In this document: piece by piece, positions 20,776 through 31,867 of the stretch
Numbering within the stretch: the first letter of the stretch is position 1
Layout: each line of letters starts with the position of its first letter
Assembly: GCF_000176035.2 (NCBI RefSeq)
Contig: NC_015675.1
Coordinates: forward strand, 2,112,001 to 2,176,000
Direction: 5' to 3'
DNA: 64,000 nt
Source of the DNA: Mesorhizobium opportunistum WSM2075
GTDB taxonomy: Bacteria > Pseudomonadota > Alphaproteobacteria > Rhizobiales > Rhizobiaceae
Program-made: the position numbers and the translations under genes
The notes under the pieces: generated by a model
Seen by the model: the letters and a program-made list of their open reading frames with translations, nothing else
Told to the model about the DNA's origin: nothing
Database searches by the model: none

Positions 20776-22290
20776 ATGACGATAGCGAAGGAAACGGCCG
20801 AACTTCTGGCGAAACTGGGTGTCGCCAAGGACGCGCTTGTTGGCGGCGACCTGATCGTGCGCAGCCCGGTGACGGGCGAGGAGATCGCGGCGCTGAAGAC
20901 CATCTCGCCGACTGAGGCGGCCAAGACCATCGATGCCGCGCACAAGGCGTTCCAGTCCTGGCGGCTGGTTCCGGGCCCGAAGCGCGGCGAACTGGTGCGC
21001 CTGCTTGGCGAGGAACTGCGCGCGCACAAGGCCGAGCTCGGCCGGTTGGTGTCGATCGAGGTCGGCAAGATCCCGTCCGAGGGCCTCGGCGAAGTGCAGG
21101 AGATGATCGACATATGCGATTTCGCCGTTGGTCTGTCCCGGCAATTGTACGGCCTGACCATCGCCACCGAGCGTCCGGGCCACCGGATGATGGAAACCTG
21201 GCATCCGCTTGGCGTCGTCGGCGTCATTTCGGCCTTCAACTTCCCGGTCGCGGTATGGTCGTGGAACGCAGCGCTGGCGCTGGTCTGCGGCGACGCGGTG
21301 GTGTGGAAGCCGTCGGAGAAGACGCCGCTGACCGCACTTGCCTGCGAGGCGATCTTCAAGCGCGCCGTCAAGCGCTTCGGCGCGGACGCGCCTCAGGGCC
21401 TGGCGCCGGTGCTGATCGGCGATCGTGCGGTCGGCGAGATCCTGGTCGACCATCCCAAGGTGCCGCTGGTTTCGGCCACCGGCTCGACCCGGATGGGCAG
21501 GGACGTCGGGCCGCGCCTGGCCAAGCGCTTCGCGCGCGCCGTGCTGGAGCTCGGCGGCAACAATGCCGGCATCGTCTGCCCGACGGCGGACCTCGACATG
21601 GCGCTGCGCGCGATTGCCTTTGGAGCGATGGGCACCGCCGGCCAGCGTTGCACGACGCTGCGGCGCCTGTTCGTGCATGACAGCGTCTATGACGCCCTGG
21701 TTCCACGTCTGAAGAAAGCATACGAAAGTGTTTCGGTCGGCAACCCGCTGGAGACCTCTTCGCTGGTCGGGCCGCTGATCGACAAGGCTGCCTTCGACAA
21801 CATGCAGAAGGCCTTGAAGGAAGCGGTGTCGCATGGCGGCAAGGTGACTGGCGGGGCGCGGCTCGAGAACGGTCATCCGGACGCCTACTACGTGCACCCG
21901 GCGCTGGTCGAGATGCCGAAACAGGTCTCGCCGGTGACGGAAGAGACCTTCGCGCCGATCCTTTATGTGATGAAATATTCGGATTTCGATACCGTGCTCG
22001 ACGAGCACAACGCGGTTGGCGCCGGCCTTTCGTCGTCGATCTTCACCCGTGACCTGCAGGAATCCGAGCGCTTCCTCGGGGTTGACGGTTCGGACTGCGG
22101 CATCGCCAACGTCAATATCGGCACGTCGGGGGCCGAGATCGGCGGTGCTTTCGGCGGCGAAAAGGAAACCGGCGGCGGCCGCGAGAGCGGCTCCGATGCG
22201 TGGAAGGCCTATATGCGGCGCGCCACCAATACGGTGAACTATTCCAAGGCGCTGCCGCTTGCCCAGGGTGTCTCGTTCGACATCGATTGA
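20776..22290 (+). CDS. amaB: L-alpha-aminoadipate-6-semialdehyde dehydrogenase (ALDH7 family)
   Basis: A 504-residue NAD(P)-dependent aldehyde dehydrogenase of the ALDH7/AmaB group. Catalytic Cys292 lies in AGQRCTTLRRLF and general-base Glu258 in LELGGNNAGIV; the cofactor region SAFNFPVAVWSWNAALALVCGD and WKPSEKTPLT are typical of antiquitin-like enzymes. The reaction is oxidation of aminoadipate semialdehyde to aminoadipate in lysine catabolism. The gene stands alone between the sigma factor (180 bases upstream) and an opposite-strand hypothetical gene. With gcdH in the same window, lysine degradation is likely, although the two genes are not in one operon. The gene symbol is by family similarity. 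Confidence 0.85.
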   Translation: MTIAKETAELLAKLGVAKDALVGGDLIVRSPVTGEEIAALKTISPTEAAKTIDAAHKAFQSWRLVPGPKRGELVRLLGEELRAHKAELGRLVSIEVGKIPSEGLGEVQEMIDICDFAVGLSRQLYGLTIATERPGHRMMETWHPLGVVGVISAFNFPVAVWSWNAALALVCGDAVVWKPSEKTPLTALACEAIFKRAVKRFGADAPQGLAPVLIGDRAVGEILVDHPKVPLVSATGSTRMGRDVGPRLAKRFARAVLELGGNNAGIVCPTADLDMALRAIAFGAMGTAGQRCTTLRRLFVHDSVYDALVPRLKKAYESVSVGNPLETSSLVGPLIDKAAFDNMQKALKEAVSHGGKVTGGARLENGHPDAYYVHPALVEMPKQVSPVTEETFAPILYVMKYSDFDTVLDEHNAVGAGLSSSIFTRDLQESERFLGVDGSDCGIANVNIGTSGAEIGGAFGGEKETGGGRESGSDAWKAYMRRATNTVNYSKALPLAQGVSFDID

Positions 22291-22664
22291 GACAGTCGGG
22301 GCTTACCCTAGATCAGTGTCGGTGCTCGGCGAGCATGAATCGACACAGGTGGAGGGCGTACACAACGCCGTAACGCTGGACAGTCTTTCGCGCTTGTCCG
22401 GCGTTGGCCTTTCGTAGCGTCTTTTCATGCGGATTTCTCACCGACCGCAACGCCGCACAGGCGGCGGCAATCAAAGTGTCTACCTGCCATGCCGGATTTG
22501 TGCATCTCCCGTATGGGGGATGCCGCCCGGATCATCCGCCTGCCGGAGAGGTGACGCAAGCGGTCCGGCGTTCCACGAAAACGCCGAACCGCATGATCTC
22601 GTTGGTTTGTGGGAGGGAAGCCGTCTCACACTTTTCCTGGAATTGCTTCGATGCCCGATATTGC
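22291..22664. other. intergenic region with a copy of the TTTTCCTGGAATTGCT repeat
   Basis: These 374 bases between two convergent genes contain no credible gene. At 22618-22647 lies a 30-base copy related to the right half of the repeat at 17569-17636, with TTTTCCTGGAATTGCT (22632-22647) identical. No clear terminator for either flanking gene is visible. Confidence 0.55.
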
Positions 22665-23576
22665 TCAATTGCCTTGCGATGGCGGGAAGCAAGCTTTGAA
22701 GGCACCGTCGACGACGGCCAGCTTGGCGGCCTGGACGGTCATGTATTCCTCGTAGAATCCGTGTGATACCCACATCACCGAATGGCCTCGCTGGCCGAGC
22801 CAGCCGATGCTGCCGAGTTCCTCGGCGGTGCGCAGTTTGCGGCCGAGATGGGTCCGCGACAGCTTGAGCCATTTGGCGAAGTCGCCGATCGAAACCACGC
22901 TGGTCGGAATCCGCTCCAGGTCGGCATGGTCGGGATCGATGCCTGACATCAACCAGTCCATGACGATGCCGCCATTGTTGAGCCAGATGAACAGGGAAAA
23001 GGTCTGGTTGGGTTCGCGCACTGGCTTTGAGGCAAGCAGGCCGTCAGCCACCAGGGGCTGCAACGTGGCAAGCATGTCGGGCCGGTCCAGGTATCTGGCC
23101 AGCCGGTCGCCGCCGTCGATATGGTCAAGCGTGCGCAGATGGGCGATCACCCAGCCGGTGAATCTCTCGATGGTGGCCGCCGTCGGTTGCAGGGGATGGG
23201 TGCGACCGTCTCCACCCGCCACATACTCGGCGATGTTGTAGTGCAGCATCTCCTTGATGAAAGCGTCTGCCGTGTTGCGGCTGGCTACCTCGTTCTTGTG
23301 CACAACCTCGATGAAGCGCGATACGGTCAGTTCCTTGCGGCGGTCGTTAGGGTCGCGCCTGAAGTGCATGGCCAGGCCGGCATGACCCATCAGCCAGCGC
23401 TGCTGCGTGGCAAAAATGGACGCCAGCCGCGGGCTCTCCTCATAGATTCGGATCAGCGCCTTCGACTGTTCTTGAACGTAGCGGTGCAGGGCCGGATGTC
23501 GGGCTATGTCTTCCAGATTCAGCGCTGGTCTCCTGATGCTTGAATCAAACTCGCATGGCGAAGTTACGTTTCCCAT
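22665..23576 (-). CDS. hypothetical protein with a possible helix-turn-helix near its C-terminus
   Basis: A 303-residue protein of no recognised family. It is soluble, mixed alpha-helical, with no signal peptide or membrane segment. Residues about 228-265 (SIGDFAKWLKLSRTHLGRKLRTAEELGSIGW) read like a winged helix-turn-helix, so a DNA-binding regulator is possible. The first two thirds (RHPALHRYVQEQSKALIRIYEESPRLASIF and following) look like a helical sensor domain. The gene is monocistronic on the minus strand. Coding quality is good; function is not known. Confidence 0.75.
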   Translation of the reverse strand: MGNVTSPCEFDSSIRRPALNLEDIARHPALHRYVQEQSKALIRIYEESPRLASIFATQQRWLMGHAGLAMHFRRDPNDRRKELTVSRFIEVVHKNEVASRNTADAFIKEMLHYNIAEYVAGGDGRTHPLQPTAATIERFTGWVIAHLRTLDHIDGGDRLARYLDRPDMLATLQPLVADGLLASKPVREPNQTFSLFIWLNNGGIVMDWLMSGIDPDHADLERIPTSVVSIGDFAKWLKLSRTHLGRKLRTAEELGSIGWLGQRGHSVMWVSHGFYEEYMTVQAAKLAVVDGAFKACFPPSQGN

Positions 23577-23872
23577 TTTTCAGTCTTCAACACTTCTGTC
23601 CAGACGTACCAATTGTGGAGAACAGGCCAGCCAAGGCATGGAGCTACGGCGATGGGGCATAGTCCAGTCCGCTAACTGATTGCTATGACTTGGAAAACCC
23701 CTCCCAATGATAGTCAGCCGAACGGCCCCCCGTTGAATTGACCTTCATCAGGGCCAGGCATAGTTTCCGCGTCATTCCGAGCGGCGGGGCACGCCTTTCG
23801 GACATGGGTGCAGACCAGCCGTGGTTTTGACGAGCGATAAGACATCGCCCGGCGGCGAAGCTTTGCCGCGTT
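23577..23872. other. intergenic region, one short palindrome only
   Basis: Nearly 300 bases between two minus-strand genes. A CGGCGAAGC/GCTTTGCCG dyad lies near 23853-23870, just beyond the stop of the small secreted protein, but it lacks a T tract and cannot be called a terminator with confidence. Nothing else is recognised. Confidence 0.4.
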
Positions 23873-24115
23873 CTACTCCGAAATGCGAGTGACTGAGAGG
23901 ACTATCGAAAGAAGATCGTGATTGGCAAAAATGCCGGCAACTCTTGCCTCGACAATCCCCTGCTTGACGCCCTGCAACTGATCCACGACCACTTTTGCCT
24001 CGACAGACATGCCGCTCGGTTCGACCCGGTGGCGATGCACCGCGTAGGCACTCGATAAAGGCATCGCCGCCAGAAGCGATGCGATTGCTATGATCTTCGG
24101 TGTGAAACTGCGCAT
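23873..24115 (-). CDS. small secreted hypothetical protein
   Basis: An 80-residue protein with a Sec signal peptide (MRSFTPKIIAIASLLAAMPLSSAYA, cleavage near AYA-V) and a 55-residue mature part of no known family. The start at 24115 is supported by a GGGAGG ribosome site about 7 bases upstream; the frame stays open 60 bases further but lacks such a site. The mature chain has no Cys and is basic at its start (HRHRVE). It lies alone between a hypothetical gene and the end of the nitrate locus. Confidence 0.6.
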   Translation of the reverse strand: MRSFTPKIIAIASLLAAMPLSSAYAVHRHRVEPSGMSVEAKVVVDQLQGVKQGIVEARVAGIFANHDLLSIVLSVTRISE

Positions 24116-24323
24116 GGTCGCGCCTCCCTTCAGCGGAAAAAGCGGTAAAGGTATCGCTTTCCAATCGCGGGCCATCCACTCCCGTCGCGTCGCGATGATC
24201 CTCTCATCGCCGGCGGTTCGTGGCCCTGTAATCCATATAGAGGGCGTTCCAACTCGTTAGAGGGCAAGGAACGCAAAGTGGACAGCTTGTGATCGGCGGC
24301 CGGTCAAACGCCTTGGACGCAGC

Positions 24324-27164
24324 TCATTCGGCGGCCTGGACGCGGTTGGCCAGGATGATGGCGCGGATCTCGGACCGGCAGGAGCCGCAATTGGTGCCGG
24401 CCTTCAGGGCATCGCCGATGGCTTCGACGGTCGTGCAGCCGGCCGCCACGGCGGTCACGATCTGGTTGACGCCGACGGTGAAGCAGGAGCAGACGGTCGC
24501 GCCGGCATCGGGCCGTTCGGCGCCGGCACGACCGGCGACGATGCGGAAGCGTTCGCGTTGGCCGGCGTGGGATATTTCCAACTGTTCAGCCGCCCAGCCG
24601 CGCGACACAGCGACCGGACCGGGCGCGACGAACAAGGCGCCGGCGAGGTGCTCGCCATCGAAAGCGGCAATGCGATGCTGTCCGGCATCGCGGTCGTGAT
24701 AGGCAAGCATTTCTGCTCGCGGCTCCACACCGAACATTGACCGGGCAAAGCCCGTCCAATCGACCTCCGGCTCGGCGAAAGCAAGCTCGACTCGCCAGCC
24801 ACCCTTGCAGCGAGTTGCCGCCCAATAGGGAGCGGCAATTGCTTGGGGACGTTGCCGCATCACGGCGAAACCAAAGGCCCTGGCGGCAAATTTCTCGATA
24901 TGGGCCGCGACGTGCTTCAGCGCCGGCTGGCCTGAGATTGGATCGGTGAGCGGCGCGGTAAGCGTGTCGAGCCGCCCTTTGGCGGCGAACTGATCGGTCC
25001 AGTGCATCGGCGCGAAGAGGCTGCCACGGCGCTGGCGGGCCGTGATCAGCGCACGTGCGAACACTTCGCCACGCGGGCTGGAGATGCGCACGATGTCGGC
25101 ATCGCCAATGCCACGGTGTTCTGCATCCGCCGGATGGATTTCGACGAAGGGCTCGGCGATGTGCTGGGACAGACGCGGGCTTTTGCCGGTGCGCGTCATC
25201 GTGTGCCAATGGTCGCGGATCCGGCCGGTGTTGAGGACGAGTGGGAAGTCAGGTGTGGTGCGGATTTCCGTGGTGGCGCGGATGGCGATGAAGCGCGCCT
25301 TGCGGTCGGGGGTATAGAAATTGCCGTTGGCGAAGAAGCGGGTGGTGGAGGGGCCAGGTCCAGCTTGAACACCCCCCTCTGTCCTGCCGGACATCTCCCC
25401 CGCAAGGGGGGAGATTGGCAGCTTCGACGCCGGCAGGTTTCCTGCGTCGCTGGTGATTGGCGAAGGCCGCGACAATAGCTGATCTCCCCCCTTGCGGGGG
25501 AGATGGCCGGCAGGCCAGAGGGGGGTGCCTGGGCTCGGCGCTGGCCATTGGAAAGGCGCCAGCGCGTCGTATTCATCCGCATCGACACCCTCATAAGCAC
25601 CAATATCGAAATCCCGCGCGCCATCGTTCTCGAAGCCCGACAGCGCGGCATGCTCGCCAAAAACCGCCGCCGGCGTCTCATGCGCAAACGCTTCGCCAAA
25701 TCCCATCCGACGCGCCACCTCGGCAATGATCCACCAGTCGGGCCGCGCTTCGCCGGGCAGGCTGAGAAACGCGCGCTGGCGCGAGATGCGGCGCTCGGAA
25801 TTGGTGACAGTGCCGTCCTTCTCGCCCCAGGCGGCGGCCGGCAGCCGGACATGGGCGTGGCGGACGGTGTCGGTGCTCACCAGCACGTCGGAGACCACGA
25901 CGAACGGGCAAGCCTTGATCGCGGCCTCGACGGCATCGGCGTCCGGCATCGAATCGACCGGGTTGGTGGCTATGATCCACAGCGCCTTGATGCGCCCGTC
26001 GGCCACGCCTTGAAACATCTCGACCGCCTTCAGGCCAGGCTTTTGCGCGACAGCAGGTGCATTCCAGAAGCGCCGCACGCGGTCACGGTGTTCGGGGTTC
26101 TCGATCTCCATATGGGCGGCGAGCATGTTGGCCATGCCGCCGACCTCGCGGCCGCCCATGGCGTTGGGCTGGCCGGTCACCGAAAATGGTCCGGCGCCCG
26201 GCCTGCCGATGCGGCCGGTGGCGAGATGACAGTTGATGATGGCGTTGACTTTGTCGGTGCCGGAGGACGACTGGTTCACGCCCTGGCTGTAGACGGTCAC
26301 CGTCTTGGCGGTCGCGGCAAACAGGCTGTAGAAACGGACAAGCTCGTCTTCGCCGAGGCCCGTCGCTGCGGCAACGCCCGCCAGATCGAGCGCCGAGGCG
26401 GCGAAAAGCGCTTGTCCGAAGCCGGTGGTGTGCGCGGTGATATAGGCGCGGTCCAGCGCATTGTGCTGGCCGAGCCAGGCGAGCAGACCGGTGAACAAGG
26501 CGACGTCGCCGTCCGCCGCGATCGCCAGGTGCATGTCGGCAATGTCCGATGTCATGGTGCGGCGCGGGTCGACCAGCACGATCTTCATGTCCGGCCGCTT
26601 TTCGCGGGCCGCGGCGATGCGCTGGTAGAGGACGGGATGGCACCAGGCGAGGTTGGAGCCGACCAGCACGATCAGGTCGGCAAGCTCGAGATCGTCGTAG
26701 TTCCCCGGCACGGTGTCGGAGCCGAAGGCGCGGCGGTGGCCGGCGACCGACGAGGCCATGCAGAGCCGCGAATTGGTGTCGATGTTGGCCGAGCCGACAA
26801 AACCCTTCATCAGCTTGTTGGCGAGGTAATAGTCCTCGGTCAGCAACTGGCCGGAGACGTAGAAGGCGACCGCATCCGGTCCGTGCTCGGCGATGGTTTG
26901 CGAGAAGGTCGACGCGACAAGGTCGAGCGCCTCGTCCCAGCCGGCGCGGCTGCCGTGGATTTCAGGATGAAGCAGCCTGCCTTCGAGGTCGATGGTTTCG
27001 GCCAAAGCCGAACCTTTCGAACAGAGCCTGCCGAAATTCGCGGGATGGTCGGGGTCGCCGCGGACGGACACTTGCCCGTCCGCGGCAACCTTCGCCAGCA
27101 CGCCGCAGCCTACCCCGCAATAGGGGCAGGTGGTCCTCACCTCGCGCGCTGCTTCAATGTCCAT
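24324..27164 (-). CDS. nasA: assimilatory nitrate reductase catalytic subunit, with an in-frame repeat insertion
   Basis: A 946-residue molybdopterin oxidoreductase that reduces nitrate to nitrite in the cytoplasm. The N-terminal 4Fe-4S motif is C13-x2-C16-x3-C20 (TCPYCGVGCGV) with the distal Cys in NFGRLCSKGSAL; molybdopterin-binding blocks follow (YSQGVNQSSSGTDKVNAI; INCHLATGRIGRPG), and a C-terminal BFD-like [2Fe-2S] domain (TVCSCFTVGVNQI...GTNCGSCRSE) is present. The start at 27164 lies 2 bases after the nirD stop. Residues about 546-599 are encoded by a palindromic repeat whose other copy is intergenic at 27535-27696; these roughly 54 residues (TPLWPAGHLPRKGGD... PISPLAGEMSGRTEGG) are foreign to the family, yet the frame continues correctly on both sides. 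Whether the enzyme tolerates the loop is unknown. Confidence 0.93.
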   Translation of the reverse strand: MDIEAAREVRTTCPYCGVGCGVLAKVAADGQVSVRGDPDHPANFGRLCSKGSALAETIDLEGRLLHPEIHGSRAGWDEALDLVASTFSQTIAEHGPDAVAFYVSGQLLTEDYYLANKLMKGFVGSANIDTNSRLCMASSVAGHRRAFGSDTVPGNYDDLELADLIVLVGSNLAWCHPVLYQRIAAAREKRPDMKIVLVDPRRTMTSDIADMHLAIAADGDVALFTGLLAWLGQHNALDRAYITAHTTGFGQALFAASALDLAGVAAATGLGEDELVRFYSLFAATAKTVTVYSQGVNQSSSGTDKVNAIINCHLATGRIGRPGAGPFSVTGQPNAMGGREVGGMANMLAAHMEIENPEHRDRVRRFWNAPAVAQKPGLKAVEMFQGVADGRIKALWIIATNPVDSMPDADAVEAAIKACPFVVVSDVLVSTDTVRHAHVRLPAAAWGEKDGTVTNSERRISRQRAFLSLPGEARPDWWIIAEVARRMGFGEAFAHETPAAVFGEHAALSGFENDGARDFDIGAYEGVDADEYDALAPFQWPAPSPGTPLWPAGHLPRKGGDQLLSRPSPITSDAGNLPASKLPISPLAGEMSGRTEGGVQAGPGPSTTRFFANGNFYTPDRKARFIAIRATTEIRTTPDFPLVLNTGRIRDHWHTMTRTGKSPRLSQHIAEPFVEIHPADAEHRGIGDADIVRISSPRGEVFARALITARQRRGSLFAPMHWTDQFAAKGRLDTLTAPLTDPISGQPALKHVAAHIEKFAARAFGFAVMRQRPQAIAAPYWAATRCKGGWRVELAFAEPEVDWTGFARSMFGVEPRAEMLAYHDRDAGQHRIAAFDGEHLAGALFVAPGPVAVSRGWAAEQLEISHAGQRERFRIVAGRAGAERPDAGATVCSCFTVGVNQIVTAVAAGCTTVEAIGDALKAGTNCGSCRSEIRAIILANRVQAAE
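25370..25527. repeat. palindromic repeat element inserted within nasA
   Basis: About 158 bases with inverted ends: the left end CACCCCCCTCTGTCCTGCCGG mirrors the right end CCGGCAGGCCAGAGGGGGGTG with a single mismatch in the outer 21 bases, and each half contains its own hairpin (ATCTCCCCCGCAAGGGGGGAGAT; GATCTCCCCCCTTGCGGGGGAGAT). It is closely related, in the same orientation, to the 162-bp copy at 27535-27696; the central 55 bases are the most diverged. This copy is translated as part of NasA. Confidence 0.9.
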
Positions 27165-27166
27165 GT

Positions 27167-27496
27167 TCAGGCCGCGCGGCTGGCCAGCGCTTCCAGCGCG
27201 ATGAACAGATGTTCGCCTTCCCGTTTCACCGGGATGGTGCGGACCGCGCCCTCGTCGGCGCCGAGCGCCTTGCCCGTCTCCAGCGAGATCACCCAATTGT
27301 GCAGAGGGCAGGTCACCGCGGCGCCATGGACGATGCCCTGGCTAAGCGGCCCGCCTTTGTGCGGGCAATGGTCATCGATGGCATAGACCTGGTCGTCGGC
27401 GGTGCGGAAGACAGCGACCTTGCCTTCAGGCGTGGCGACGCAGCGTGCGCCACGGCGCGGGATGTCGGAGAGGGTGCCGATGGCGATCCAGTTCAT
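27167..27496 (-). CDS. nirD: nitrite reductase small subunit (Rieske type)
   Basis: A 109-residue protein with a complete Rieske [2Fe-2S] motif: Cys-x-His in DDHCPHKGGPL (residues about 43-45) and Cys-x2-His in CPLHNWVI (about 63-66). It is the small subunit that partners NirB in the NADH-dependent assimilatory reduction of nitrite to ammonium. The ATG at 27496 (MNWIAIGTLSDIPRRGAR) is the family start; the frame is open upstream only because it runs into the repeat at 27535-27696. Its stop lies 2 bases before the nasA start, so the two genes are coupled. Confidence 0.93.
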   Translation of the reverse strand: MNWIAIGTLSDIPRRGARCVATPEGKVAVFRTADDQVYAIDDHCPHKGGPLSQGIVHGAAVTCPLHNWVISLETGKALGADEGAVRTIPVKREGEHLFIALEALASRAA

Positions 27497-27534
27497 GTGG
27501 GCGCTCCCGGCTCTGCTTGATGTGTAAATGCCCA

Positions 27535-27696
27535 GGCGCCCCCCTCTGTCCTGCCGGACATCTCCCCCGCAAGGGGGGAGATTGGCAGCTTCGACGGTGG
27601 CATCCAGCTGCCGGCTTTGGAGATTGGCGAAAACCGAAACGACATCCGATCTCCCCACTTGAGGGGGAGATGGCCGGCAGGCCAGAGGGGGGCGCC
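27535..27696. repeat. palindromic repeat element between nirB and nirD
   Basis: A 162-bp element with 34-bp inverted ends (27535-27568 and 27663-27696) that differ at only two positions and start with GGCGCC. Each half holds an inner hairpin around ATCTCCCCC/GGGGGAGAT. It is the intergenic twin of the copy within nasA. Both halves could fold in the nirB-nirD messenger RNA. No gene lies in it. Confidence 0.9.
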
Positions 27697-27713
27697 TCGC
27701 GCAAACATCTCCA

Positions 27714-30164
27714 TCACTCCGCCGCCTCGGCAAACCCGACCGAAGCCATCGGACGGAATTCGTGCTTGTCCTTGCCGGAGACGCGCTCCGACCACGGATC
27801 GACCTGGGCGAACTTCTGCGAGAAGACGAAGCGCTCGTAATAGGCCTTGCGCTTGTCCGCATCGTCCATGATCTGGCGCTTGATCTCGGGGATGCCGATG
27901 CGCTTGGCCCATTTGTAGATGCGTTCGAGATAGCGGCCCTGCTCGCGGTACATCTGTGTCAGCGCCACGATATGCTGCAGCGCCTCGTCTTCCGTCTTCA
28001 CGAGGCCGAGCACTTCGGTGCCCTTGATGTCGAGGCCGGCGGCACCGGCGAAATGGATCTCGTAGCCACTGTCGACGCAGATGACGCCGACATCCTTGCA
28101 GGTCGCCTCGGCGCAGTTCCTCGGGCAGCCCGACACCGCCATCTTGACCTTGGCCGGGGTCCACGAGCCCCACATGAATTTCTCGATGCGGATGCCGAGC
28201 CCGGTCGAATCCTGCGTGCCGAAGCGACACCAGTCGGAACCGACGCAGGTCTTCACCGTACGCAGGCCCTTGGCATAGGCGTGGCCCGAGACGAAGCCGG
28301 CCTGGCCGAGATCGGCCCACACCGCCGGCAGGTCCTCCTTGCGGATGCCCAGCATGTCGATACGCTGGCCGCCCGTGACCTTGACCATCGGGATCTCGAA
28401 CTTGTCGACGACATCGGCGATGGCGCGCAGCTCGGCCGCATTGGTCACGCCGCCCCACATGCGCGGCACCACCGAATAGGTGCCGTCCTTCTGGATGTTG
28501 GCGTGGACGCGCTCGTTGATGAAACGCGATTGATAGTCGTCGGCGTACTCGTCCGGCCAATCGCAGACGAGGTAGTAGTTGAGCGCCGGCCTGCATTTGG
28601 CGCAGCCGCAGGAGGTCTTCCACTCCAGTTCCTGCATGACGGCGGGAATGGTCTTCAGCCCCTTGGCCTTGATCAGCCGGCGCACCTCGTCATGGCCGAG
28701 CGTGGTGCAGCCGCACATCGGCTGTACGGCGGCCGGGTTGTAGTTGTCGCCAATGGTCAGCACCATCAGCTTCTCGACCAGCCCGGTGCAGGAGCCGCAG
28801 GAGGCCGACGCTTTGGTGTGAGCCCTGACGTCGTCGAGCGAGGTCAGGCCCTTGGCTGTGATCGTACTGGTGATCTTGCCCTTGCAGACGCCGTTGCAGC
28901 CGCAGATTTCCGCATCATCCGGCAAGGCTGCAACGGCCGCCATAGGGTCCAGCGGGGCACCCCCCTGGTAGGACTGGCCGAAGATCAACGTATCGCGCAT
29001 TTGCGATATGTCGGTCTGTTTCTTCTTGAGGTCGTTGAACCAGGCGCCGTCCGCCGTCTCGCCATAGAGCACGGTGCCGATGATGCGGTCGTCCTTGAGC
29101 ACGAGCCGCTTGTAGACGCCGGCCGCCGCATCGCGCAGCACGATCTCCTGGCGATCCTCGCCTTCGGCGAAATCGCCGAGCGAGAACAGGTCAATGCCGG
29201 TAACCTTGAGCTTGGTTGGCGTGTCCATGTGGACGAAGGCGGCAGCCTCGTCGCCGGCGAGTTGGCTCGCGGCAACGCGCGCCATCTCATAGAGCGGCGC
29301 CACCAGCCCATAGACCATGCCGTTGACCTCGGCGCATTCACCGAGCGCGAAGATGTCGGGGTCGTTGCTGCGCATGCCGGCGTCGACGACGATGCCGCGA
29401 TTGACGGCAATGCCCGCCTCTTTGGCCAGCGCCGCATTGGGCCGGATGCCGACCGCCATCACCACCAAAGTCGCCGGGATGACTGTGCCGTCGGCAAGTT
29501 CGACCTGCTCCACCTTGCCGTTGCCCGTGATCGCCTGTGTGTTGGCCTTGGTGATGACCTTGATGCCGCGTTCTTCGACCGCGCGCTGCAGGAGATAGCC
29601 GGCGGCCGGATCGAGCTGGCGCTCCATCAGCGTCGGCATGACGTGCAGCACGGTGACGTCCATGCCCTGCGCGCTCAGGCCGGCCGCGGCCTCGAGCCCA
29701 AGCAGGCCGCCGCCGATAACCACGGCCTTGGACCTGGACTGGGCGGCAAGCATCATCGCCTGGACGTCGTCGAGGTCGCGATAGGTCAGCACGCCGGGCA
29801 GATTGTGGCCCGGCACCGGGATGATGAACGGCACCGAGCCGGTGGCGATGACCAGTTTGTCGTAGGGTTCGGTGACGCCGTGGTCCGAGGTGACGGTCTT
29901 CGCTGCCCGATCAATAGCGACGATCTTGTGGCCCTTGTACAGCGTGATGTCGTTGGCGATGTACCAGCCATCGCCATGGATGATGATTTCCTCATACGCC
30001 TTTTCACCGGACAGCACCGGCGACAGCATGATGCGATCGTAGTTCACCCTGGGCTCGGCGTTGAAGATGGTGACCTGGTAGCGGCCCGGCGCTCGCTCCA
30101 ACAGGTGCTCCAGCATGCGCCCAGGGGCCATGCCGTTTCCGATGATGACGAGTTTTTCGGTCAT
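27714..30164 (-). CDS. nirB: NADH-dependent assimilatory nitrite reductase large subunit
   Basis: An 816-residue cytoplasmic enzyme reducing nitrite to ammonium. It has an N-terminal FAD/NADH domain (LVIIGNGMAPGRMLEHLLE; GGGLLGLEAAAGLSAQGMDVTVLH), one or two BFD-like [2Fe-2S] regions (CGCNGVCKGKI... SCGSCTGLVEKL near residues 415-465; CGCAKCRPALNYY near 520), and the C-terminal ferredoxin-like and siroheme/4Fe-4S sulfite/nitrite reductase domain (TCVGSDWCRFGTQDSTGLG; SGCPRNCAEATCKDVG). Length and order match NirB. It lies 4 bases after the transporter ATPase gene and 217 bases before nirD, from which it is separated by a palindromic repeat. Confidence 0.95.
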   Translation of the reverse strand: MTEKLVIIGNGMAPGRMLEHLLERAPGRYQVTIFNAEPRVNYDRIMLSPVLSGEKAYEEIIIHGDGWYIANDITLYKGHKIVAIDRAAKTVTSDHGVTEPYDKLVIATGSVPFIIPVPGHNLPGVLTYRDLDDVQAMMLAAQSRSKAVVIGGGLLGLEAAAGLSAQGMDVTVLHVMPTLMERQLDPAAGYLLQRAVEERGIKVITKANTQAITGNGKVEQVELADGTVIPATLVVMAVGIRPNAALAKEAGIAVNRGIVVDAGMRSNDPDIFALGECAEVNGMVYGLVAPLYEMARVAASQLAGDEAAAFVHMDTPTKLKVTGIDLFSLGDFAEGEDRQEIVLRDAAAGVYKRLVLKDDRIIGTVLYGETADGAWFNDLKKKQTDISQMRDTLIFGQSYQGGAPLDPMAAVAALPDDAEICGCNGVCKGKITSTITAKGLTSLDDVRAHTKASASCGSCTGLVEKLMVLTIGDNYNPAAVQPMCGCTTLGHDEVRRLIKAKGLKTIPAVMQELEWKTSCGCAKCRPALNYYLVCDWPDEYADDYQSRFINERVHANIQKDGTYSVVPRMWGGVTNAAELRAIADVVDKFEIPMVKVTGGQRIDMLGIRKEDLPAVWADLGQAGFVSGHAYAKGLRTVKTCVGSDWCRFGTQDSTGLGIRIEKFMWGSWTPAKVKMAVSGCPRNCAEATCKDVGVICVDSGYEIHFAGAAGLDIKGTEVLGLVKTEDEALQHIVALTQMYREQGRYLERIYKWAKRIGIPEIKRQIMDDADKRKAYYERFVFSQKFAQVDPWSERVSGKDKHEFRPMASVGFAEAAE

Positions 30165-30168
30165 TGGC

Positions 30169-30969
30169 CTACTCCGCGGCTTCGACGAAGCGGTGGCGTT
30201 CGTAGAGGAATTTCAGCACCGCCTCGCGGCAGCGCAGGAAGGTGCGATCCGAGGCGAGTTCGATGCGCCGGCGGGGGCGGGCCAGCGGCACGGGAAGAAC
30301 CTCGCCGATGGTCGCGGCCGGGCCGTTGGTCATCATGACGATGCGGTCGGAGAGCAGCACCGCCTCATCGACATCATGGGTGATCATGATCGTCGTCGAG
30401 CCGAGCCTGGAATGGATGTCCATCACCGCGTCCTGCAGATGCGCGCGCGTCAACGCGTCGAGCGCGCCGAACGGCTCGTCGAGCAGCAGGATCTTCGGCT
30501 CCATGGCCAGCGCGCGCGCGATGCCGACGCGCTGCTTCATGCCGCCCGAGATCTCCGCCGGGCGCTTGTCCCTGGCATGCGCCATCTGCACGAGGTCGAG
30601 ATTGCGCATGATCCAGTCATGCCGCTCGGCCTTGCTCTTGGAACGGCCAAAGACTTTCGACACCGCCAGGTTGATGTTCTCGTAGACCGTCAGCCACGGC
30701 AAAAGGCTGTGGTTCTGGAACACCACGGCGCGCTCGGGTCCGGGGCTGTCGACCTCCTTGTTCTCGAGCAGCACGGCGCCAGCGGACACCGTGGTCAGCC
30801 CGGCGATCAGGTTGAGCAAGGTCGACTTGCCACAGCCTGAGTGACCGATGATGGAGACGAATTCGCCCTTGTCGATGGTCAGCCGGATGTCCTTCAGGAC
30901 CTCGCTGACCTGGCCGCCGCGGGCGAAGGATTTGTCGATATGGTCGAGTTTCAGGTAGGCGGTCATCAC
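30169..30969 (-). CDS. nrtC: nitrate ABC transporter ATP-binding protein
   Basis: A 266-residue ABC ATPase of the nitrate/sulfonate/taurine family that powers the NrtB permease. Visible motifs are Walker A GHSGCGKST (about residues 42-50), the signature SGGMKQRVGIARAL, Walker B ILLLDEPFGALDA and the switch His in MITHDVDEA. It has no fused binding-protein domain, so it corresponds to NrtD or a NasD-type subunit as well as to NrtC; the symbol is by position. It lies 7 bases after the permease gene and 4 bases before nirB within the nitrate operon. A second ATG lies one codon in. Confidence 0.9.
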   Translation of the reverse strand: MMTAYLKLDHIDKSFARGGQVSEVLKDIRLTIDKGEFVSIIGHSGCGKSTLLNLIAGLTTVSAGAVLLENKEVDSPGPERAVVFQNHSLLPWLTVYENINLAVSKVFGRSKSKAERHDWIMRNLDLVQMAHARDKRPAEISGGMKQRVGIARALAMEPKILLLDEPFGALDALTRAHLQDAVMDIHSRLGSTTIMITHDVDEAVLLSDRIVMMTNGPAATIGEVLPVPLARPRRRIELASDRTFLRCREAVLKFLYERHRFVEAAE

Positions 30970-30976
30970 GCTCTCC

Positions 30977-31867
30977 TCACTTTGCCGTCGTGCCGCGCGT
31001 GACGAAGACGCCGACCGCGGCGACCAGGCGGTCGAGGCAGAAGCCGGTGACGCCGATATAGGCGAGCGCGACGATGATGTCGGGCAGCCGCGACGAGTTC
31101 CACGCGTCCCAGATGAAGAAGCCGATGCCGACGCCGCCTGTCAGCATTTCGGCGGCCACGATGGCGAGCCACGACAGGCCGATGCCGATCCTGAGGCCGG
31201 TGAAGATGTAGGGTGCCGCGGCCGGCACCATGATCTTGATGAAGAATTCGAGCGGGTTGAGCCGCAGGATGCGGGCGACGTTGCGGTAATCCTGCGGGAT
31301 GTTGCGCACGCCGACGGCGGTGTTGATGATGATCGGCCAGATCGAGGTGATGAAGATGACGAACAGCGCCGACGGGCTGGAATCGCGGAACGCGGCCAGC
31401 GACAGCGGCAGCCAGGCGAGCGGCGGCACGGTGCGCAGGATCTGGAACACCGGATCGAGGCCGCGCATCGCCCAGATAGACTGGCCGACCAGCGCGCCAA
31501 GCGCTACGCCGACGACCGCCGCCATGCCGAAGCCGATGGCAACACGCTGCAGCGAGATCAGCACCCGCCAGGCCAGCCCGATATCCTGCGGGCCATTGTT
31601 GAAGAACGGATGGGCGATGAGGTCGTAGGCCTCGTTCCACACTTGGCTGGGCGGCGGCAGGCTCGATGTCGGCGACGAGCAGGCGATTTGCCAGACGACG
31701 AGCATCAAAGCGATGACGACGACCGGCGGCACCAGCGTGCTCGCCAGCTTTCCGGCGATCGCGACCGGATCGAAGTGGCGTCGTGCCTTGACCGTGAAGG
31801 CGATGACTTCGGCCGGCTTGGCGGGAAAGGCCTTCACCTTGGTGTCCTCGATCGTCTGGATAGACAT
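30977..31867 (-). CDS. nrtB: nitrate ABC transporter permease
   Basis: A 296-residue inner-membrane permease. Six hydrophobic stretches are visible, with the EAA-type loop in RNVARILRLNPLEFFIKIMVPAAAPYIFTGLRIGIG. The start at 31867 (MSIQTIEDTKVKAFPAKPAEV) gives the usual cytoplasmic N-terminus of NrtB proteins; the frame is open 118 codons further up but that stretch has the composition of a shadow of nrtA. It works with NrtA and the ATPase to import nitrate. It follows nrtA after 103 bases that hold two stable hairpins. Confidence 0.92.
   Translation of the reverse strand: MSIQTIEDTKVKAFPAKPAEVIAFTVKARRHFDPVAIAGKLASTLVPPVVVIALMLVVWQIACSSPTSSLPPPSQVWNEAYDLIAHPFFNNGPQDIGLAWRVLISLQRVAIGFGMAAVVGVALGALVGQSIWAMRGLDPVFQILRTVPPLAWLPLSLAAFRDSSPSALFVIFITSIWPIIINTAVGVRNIPQDYRNVARILRLNPLEFFIKIMVPAAAPYIFTGLRIGIGLSWLAIVAAEMLTGGVGIGFFIWDAWNSSRLPDIIVALAYIGVTGFCLDRLVAAVGVFVTRGTTAK

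Follow-up and report, generated by a model that had tools for sequence, protein, structure and literature searches.

The window, a stretch of 64,000 nucleotides from the single-contig genome of Mesorhizobium opportunistum WSM2075 (6,884,444 bases), contains nasA, encoding the catalytic subunit of assimilatory nitrate reductase, and within its coding region a palindromic repeat, element A, which is translated as a part of the protein (Table 1). An inverted repeat of about 160 bp in nasA, a nearly identical intergenic copy, and a reading frame crossing the repeat without a stop had been proposed in the initial annotation, and all three were confirmed. The element in nasA has 158 bp; its arms, 46 nt each, are 96% complementary and separated by 66 nt, and each contains two small hairpins. 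The arms of the intergenic copy occupy positions 27534-27585 and 27646-27697. The stem pattern (up to three mismatches) has seven matches in the window, all of them within these two copies, whereas 0.01 are expected from shuffled sequences. Folded as a single strand in the sense of nasA, positions 25362-25536 reach -130.6 kcal/mol, compared with -75.0 +/- 4.8 kcal/mol for shuffled sequences (z = -11.5, none of 200 shuffles as good). No Rfam family was matched at the gathering score in positions 22000-31000.

Table 1. Features of the nasA locus (positions in the window; cells are empty where no strand is assigned)
Feature	Position	Strand	Basis
nasA, assimilatory nitrate reductase catalytic subunit, 946 aa	24324..27164	-	translation, Pfam, homologues
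Core of palindromic element A, in frame within nasA, encodes residues 547-598	25370..25527		inverted repeat, translation, genome copies
5'-side arm (nasA sense), with two small hairpins	25482..25527	-	inverted repeat
3'-side arm (nasA sense)	25370..25415	-	inverted repeat
66-nt spacer separating the arms; pN = pS in relatives	25416..25481	-	inverted repeat, substitution counts
Outer flank, recurrent type CCGAGCCCAGGCA, taken as part of the insert	25528..25544		flank types common to genome copies; extent estimated
Outer flank, recurrent type GAGCTTGAACA, taken as part of the insert	25357..25369		flank types common to genome copies; extent estimated
Second copy of element A, intergenic, with nirD-like and nirB-like genes on either side	27534..27697		inverted repeat; gene names from ORF (open reading frame) reading

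NasA contains the Pfam domains PF04879, PF00384, PF01568 and PF04324. It scores below every NCBIfam cut-off shown, and therefore its name rests on Pfam and homologues. The insert lies after PF00384 (residues 73-485) and before PF01568 (642-753), in the linker of two molybdopterin domains. A PDB search with NasA recovered molybdopterin oxidoreductases, with periplasmic nitrate reductase at the top. In the AlphaFold model (mean pLDDT 63) the insert is among the regions of lowest confidence, 26-35 per ten-residue block, and has no secondary structure; the model is too weak to prove surface exposure, for which a test by structure prediction had been suggested. The initial annotation assigned about 54 residues, 546-599, to the insert. 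The insertion is indeed in frame, and the core encodes residues 547-598. As the outer flanks of the genome copies fall into a few recurrent types, the insert is probably somewhat larger than 25370-25527, and the true element A probably extends about a dozen bases beyond the core on either side.

Element A is dispersed over the genome. A DNA search found 40 places, from 40 scored of 157 candidates (80 rows, that is, two strands of each place). The stem pattern has 208 forward matches in the whole genome, and a control pattern has one; an earlier pattern with a six-base loop matched only nine places and was replaced. With a strict full-length pattern, 57 matches were obtained in forward and 58 in reverse orientation, and its control gave none. 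The 57 rows correspond to 56 copies, since L026 and L132 (here and below, L and G numbers denote loci and genomes) are one copy. By one definition, the length is 153, 154 or 155 nt in 52 of these 57 rows; thus the length divisible by three, observed initially in the intergenic copy, is not a fixed property of the element. Within the fetched stretches, 64 copies of at least 130 nt were located by genome position. The strict pattern was found in 32 of 37 Mesorhizobium genomes, this one included, and in none of 24 genomes from other families of the order. The five genus genomes with no strict match are G005, G006, G013, G022 and G024. Apparent counterparts of the intergenic copy are seen shortly upstream of nasA in L032, L034, L038, L047, L068, L073 and L086, and in the Agrobacterium/Rhizobium loci L093, L094, L101 and L107. 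Mobilisation of element A by a RAYT is not supported, as the Y1 transposase family PF01797 has no match in the WSM2075 genome; the family is present in five of the 37 genus genomes searched (own included).

The NasA linker was compared in 81 sequences, that of the window and those of 80 named loci. A full element A occupies the same place in 30 of them, one arm is present in one, deletion scars are flagged in five, and 45 have no element, two of the latter being labelled with another repeat. The filled sequences comprise 27 of the 49 in the Mesorhizobium clade, two of four from Chelativorans (L079 and L084), and one from Paramesorhizobium (L082). The question whether homologues lack the segment is answered in part: the outgroups do, whereas in the Mesorhizobium clade these 27 sequences contain it as the same repeat. 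In a sample covering the family (199 genomes, 30 NasA loci fetched), element A was found at this site in two further genera (L214 and L215), and other repeats were found in L213 and L216. The linker from QWP to RFF has 10 residues in 16 and 9-12 residues in 20 of the 22 parsed loci from L217-L240; where element A is present, it has 60-112. In all five loci outside Mesorhizobium the element has the identical position and frame. Since the same site is filled in the Mesorhizobium clade and in these five loci of other genera, the nasA insertion is considered old.

In-frame deletion scars can be read in the sequences of L050, L059, L067 and L068. Only the collapsed outer stem remains in L067 and L050, and L059 is joined at the common GGCCAG. 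Other repeats were identified in the linker by eye: a second repeat stands beside element A in L062, L064, L071 and L072 and without it in L070 and L099, a third type is present in L085, and P0013 and P0019 contain a further insert within element A. The Chelativorans sequences (L079, L084) have another repeat within element A, with the frame still open. In relatives, the stretch C-terminal to the insert varies in length among species and contains short QAG..PEG-like units, as judged by eye.

Repeated independent insertions into a hotspot, instead of one old insertion, would agree with the presence of other repeats in the same linker of other species, with the at least 16 changes that the presence and absence of element A need on a quick NasA tree, and with two of 19 compared NasA copies being closest to non-NasA copies. 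However, the position and frame are identical in Mesorhizobium, Chelativorans, Paramesorhizobium and the two further genera, and visible scars account for a part of the absences. Moreover, the best match of the other 17 copies is another NasA copy, in a comparison that left out five copies failing the pattern and drew the comparison copies mostly from one genome. We consider recurrent insertion unlikely and prefer one old insertion at this site.

The evolution of the insert was analysed in 23 relatives with element A alone, the copy of the window being left out. The stretch between fixed ends has 152 nt in 21 of them, 149 in one and 155 in one; these lengths belong to one frame class, as an open frame requires. 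Between species, the middle of the insert is 65% identical and an arm 97%. Proportions of synonymous (pS) and nonsynonymous (pN) differences were determined in the 210 pairs of the 21 relatives with equal length, excluding the copy of the window and the two copies of other length. In nasA before the insert, pS is 0.342 and pN is 0.050 (pN/pS about 0.15); in the arms the values are 0.028 and 0.038, and in the spacer 0.396 and 0.394. Thus the spacer peptide shows no visible amino acid constraint; the frame and the absence of stops are preserved in the spacers of relatives. Flank pS is below 0.25 in 18 pairs, four of which include the inverted L045 compared unturned; in 15 of the 18, the spacer divergence exceeds the flank pS more than 1.3-fold. 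This excess suggests replacement of spacers from other copies.

The arms pair over a long range at 95.9%, with six pairs changed on both sides, and four of five measures of covariation exceed all 500 shuffles. The class of the hairpin loop agrees between the two arms in 68 of 72 copies from the four gene sites described below, versus 31.3 expected, with none of 2000 shuffles as high; 16 of 88 copies lack two parsed loops, and the pattern shifts one loop type by one base, leaving the class unaffected. As these bases would be unpaired in local hairpins, the agreement concerns arm versus arm. The residues encoded by the arms are alike across insertions, also in unrelated genes, whereas the spacer peptide is not.

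The element could have been kept in nasA for a function, the mRNA or DNA hairpin regulating the gene or the peptide serving the enzyme. The arms are indeed about 12-fold less divergent than the gene at synonymous sites, their pairing is preserved with joint changes, and the insert is present in 27 of the 49 Mesorhizobium-clade sequences. On the other hand, pN equals pS in the spacer, several species without the element, some of them scarred, keep an open nasA, and the arms are alike across genome copies, as are the residues they encode in unrelated genes. We therefore regard retention for function as very unlikely. Palindromes can be misassembled and many relatives are draft genomes, but this genome is one 6.88-Mb contig, the same insert occurs with open frames in independent genomes and purifying selection acts on the remainder of nasA, which leaves practically no place for an assembly error or a pseudogene.

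The reading of the insert as a dispersed palindromic element translated within an open nasA is thus supported, and the case is wider than originally proposed. The genome-wide count suggested in the initial annotation gives about 57 strict full-length copies, and frames and homology place four of the 64 located copies inside genes: nasA, cobG, cobN and the gene of an oligopeptide-type ABC (ATP-binding cassette) ATPase. In each of them the element is in frame in a conserved open gene, some orthologues of which lack it. Copies at gene ends were not classed in this tally, and long Arg/His-rich open frames over copies, judged by eye to be probably antisense, were left out. The cobG and cobN genes are neighbours (L132); the ABC ATPase gene is in L015. 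CobG is covered by NCBIfam family TIGR02435 from 1 to 388 with 470 bits, the cut-off being 234.8. CobN passes two NCBIfam cut-offs. The ABC protein matches many NCBIfam families in two stretches and reaches none of the cut-offs shown. Gene calling by codon scores flagged only nasA and the ABC gene; since it missed cobG and cobN, their in-gene status rests on orthologues and NCBIfam.

According to the match table for 61 genomes of the genus, 42 have a filled cobG site, one of them truncated at a contig end; in 17 the match is split, as it would be at an empty site, and two are unclear. A stop is flagged within the matched stretch in five of the 42 filled matches. Among 30 fetched cobG loci, 29 have the insert and one is unclear. 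Of the 61 genomes, at least 29 have a filled ABC site, all 29 fetched orthologues having the insert. For cobN, element A is present in 28 of 30 fetched loci, and hence in at least 28 of the 61 genomes; of the other two loci, one has another repeat and one has none. CobN of this genome also contains a further inverted repeat of another kind (L132:5267-5415; arms of 27 nt, 85%), in frame at about residues 180-222, and matches to CobN homologues break there.

The spacer is found in both orientations within open frames. Forward and reverse spacers number 12 and 16 in cobG (one unclear), 12 and 17 at the ABC site (a paralogue aside), 17 and 11 in cobN (two unclear), and 20 and one in nasA (two unparsed); L160, having no segment, is absent from this listing, and the orientation is unclear in L157, L210, L269 and L270. 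The pattern failed in seven cobG, seven ABC (one of them the paralogue) and ten cobN loci; among the last, one site is empty and one contains another repeat. Comparisons of spacer identity and loop class use the remaining copies, of which two from nasA and one from cobG have no parsed spacer. On quick trees, at least four changes of orientation are needed in cobG, 10 in the ABC gene and 11 in cobN.

Spacers from different gene sites, turned alike, served as a control, with identity of at most 0.824 in 2707 comparisons; among the paralogues of this genome the maximum is 0.818 (1538 comparisons). Seven pairs from the same site with opposite orientations exceed the control after turning. These are the cobG spacer of this genome with three relatives (0.90, 0.87 and 0.87), cobN of L247 in three pairs (0.93, 0.90 and 0.88), and one pair at the ABC site (0.87). 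When three such pairs were aligned together with their flanks, turning the spacer changed identity from 0.750 to 0.828, from 0.710 to 0.795 and from 0.773 to 0.832; the outer flanks in these alignments have some short gaps too. The best-scoring inverted pairs include draft genomes. Among single-contig genomes, the cobG spacer is reversed in G000, G011, G036 and G071 and forward in G009 and G021, which speaks against assembly error. In the ABC gene, in cobG and in cobN alike, one or more orthologous spacers have been inverted in place with the frame kept. The frame survives inversion owing to the mirror symmetry of the arms and the unchanged lengths. That the elements are coding cassettes still flipping in living populations, so that strains are mixtures of CobG, CobN, ABC ATPase or NasA variants, seems to us quite unlikely; if true, selfish DNA would have yielded a source of protein variation, with two alternative loop peptides, that preserves the frame and works without a recombinase.

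Element A is inserted in frame at shared sites, and combines a neutral spacer with conserved, co-varying arms. We are fairly confident that it works much as the Rickettsia palindromic elements (RPE) do, that loops tolerate it, that recombination or template switching preserves the palindrome and turns it, and that nasA contains one old insertion. A non-autonomous palindrome resembling repetitive extragenic palindromes (REP) or miniature inverted-repeat transposable elements (MITE) would have been dispersed over Mesorhizobium genomes. Long ago, one copy would have entered the codons of the NasA linker in a stop-free frame and been tolerated; it may have been inherited since, sometimes being lost by in-frame deletion and sometimes joined by other repeats. 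The arms would be homogenised, most likely by recombination among copies and template switching between arms, and the same process would swap or invert the spacer. The arms are long enough to fold back, and thus template switching or inter-arm recombination could both homogenise them and turn the spacer. From these comparisons we infer the mode of insertion, a single event at the nasA site, a causal role of recombination, and tolerance over benefit.

Several observations weigh against this explanation. The fifth covariation measure, which counts the types of pair, has an ordinary value, reached by 111 of 500 shuffles, and the conservation of the arms could also reflect selection on DNA or RNA structure. 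The pairs in the substitution and inversion comparisons share rows and hence are not independent, and the trees behind the counts of orientation changes are weakly supported. The mean identity of cobG spacers in opposite orientations, 0.626, is not above the control mean of 0.649, and so most cobG spacers cannot be traced as orthologous; the sole inverted NasA spacer (L045) also does not exceed the control, its best match being 0.76. Finally, mobility was not seen: no target-site duplication was established for the copies, and the parent transposon was sought through PF01797 only.

With one repeat in frame, in either orientation, at fixed positions in nasA and in at least three other genes across the genus, DNA of selfish appearance has become permanently established within intact genes of a free-living rhizobium. 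The naturally filled, empty, scarred, nested and inverted alleles make neutrality, the upkeep of palindromes within genes and the frequency of inversion directly testable. Annotators should be aware that a peptide such as ISPLEGEMSGRTEGG, being derived from a repeat, does not have to represent a domain.

REP and REPIN are short hairpins moved by Y1 (RAYT) transposases. Element A is similar in having short hairpins in inverted pairs and tens of copies, of which few are located within genes here; it differs from REPINs accompanied by a RAYT in that PF01797 is not matched in this genome. Dispersed palindromic repeats of Rhizobiales include RIME, ABC, SMAG and the Bru-RS of Brucella. Element A is also such a repeat, compared with them by name and description, and may or may not be identical with one of them. 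Like MITEs, it has terminal inverted repeats. Intragenic ERIC/RU and a Neisseria MITE are, according to parts of the literature (PMC2229807, PMC2759123), small open-frame repeats fused to genes; as far as descriptions go, element A is similar to them in this respect, and the hosts and the elements are different. At the level of titles and abstracts, in a literature where subscription papers are mostly outside the coverage, no description of coding palindromes in rhizobia was found, and by term counts the main texts of PMC2267715 and PMC1590033 do not mention Mesorhizobium.

The closest description is that of the RPE, palindromes of about 100-150 bp occurring between genes and in frame within unrelated conserved genes (parts of PMC10969869 and PMC2229807). 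The same partial sources describe RPE and some MITEs as fused in frame to genes, cite a title on coding palindromes of Wolbachia, and treat the frequent occurrence of such palindromes in coding sequence as characteristic of Rickettsia. Element A, a multi-copy palindrome with a 158 bp core, likewise occurs in intergenic regions and in frame in unrelated conserved genes, as compared by description; here, the palindromes occupy four fixed gene sites in many species of a free-living genus. For another system, template switching has been put forward as a mechanism that could underlie coding palindromes, and RPE are said to lose their repeat identity over time (PMC6649704, in part). In contrast, the arms of element A stay conserved in genes, its host, a rhizobium, is free-living and has a large genome, and its in-gene spacer occurs in both orientations.
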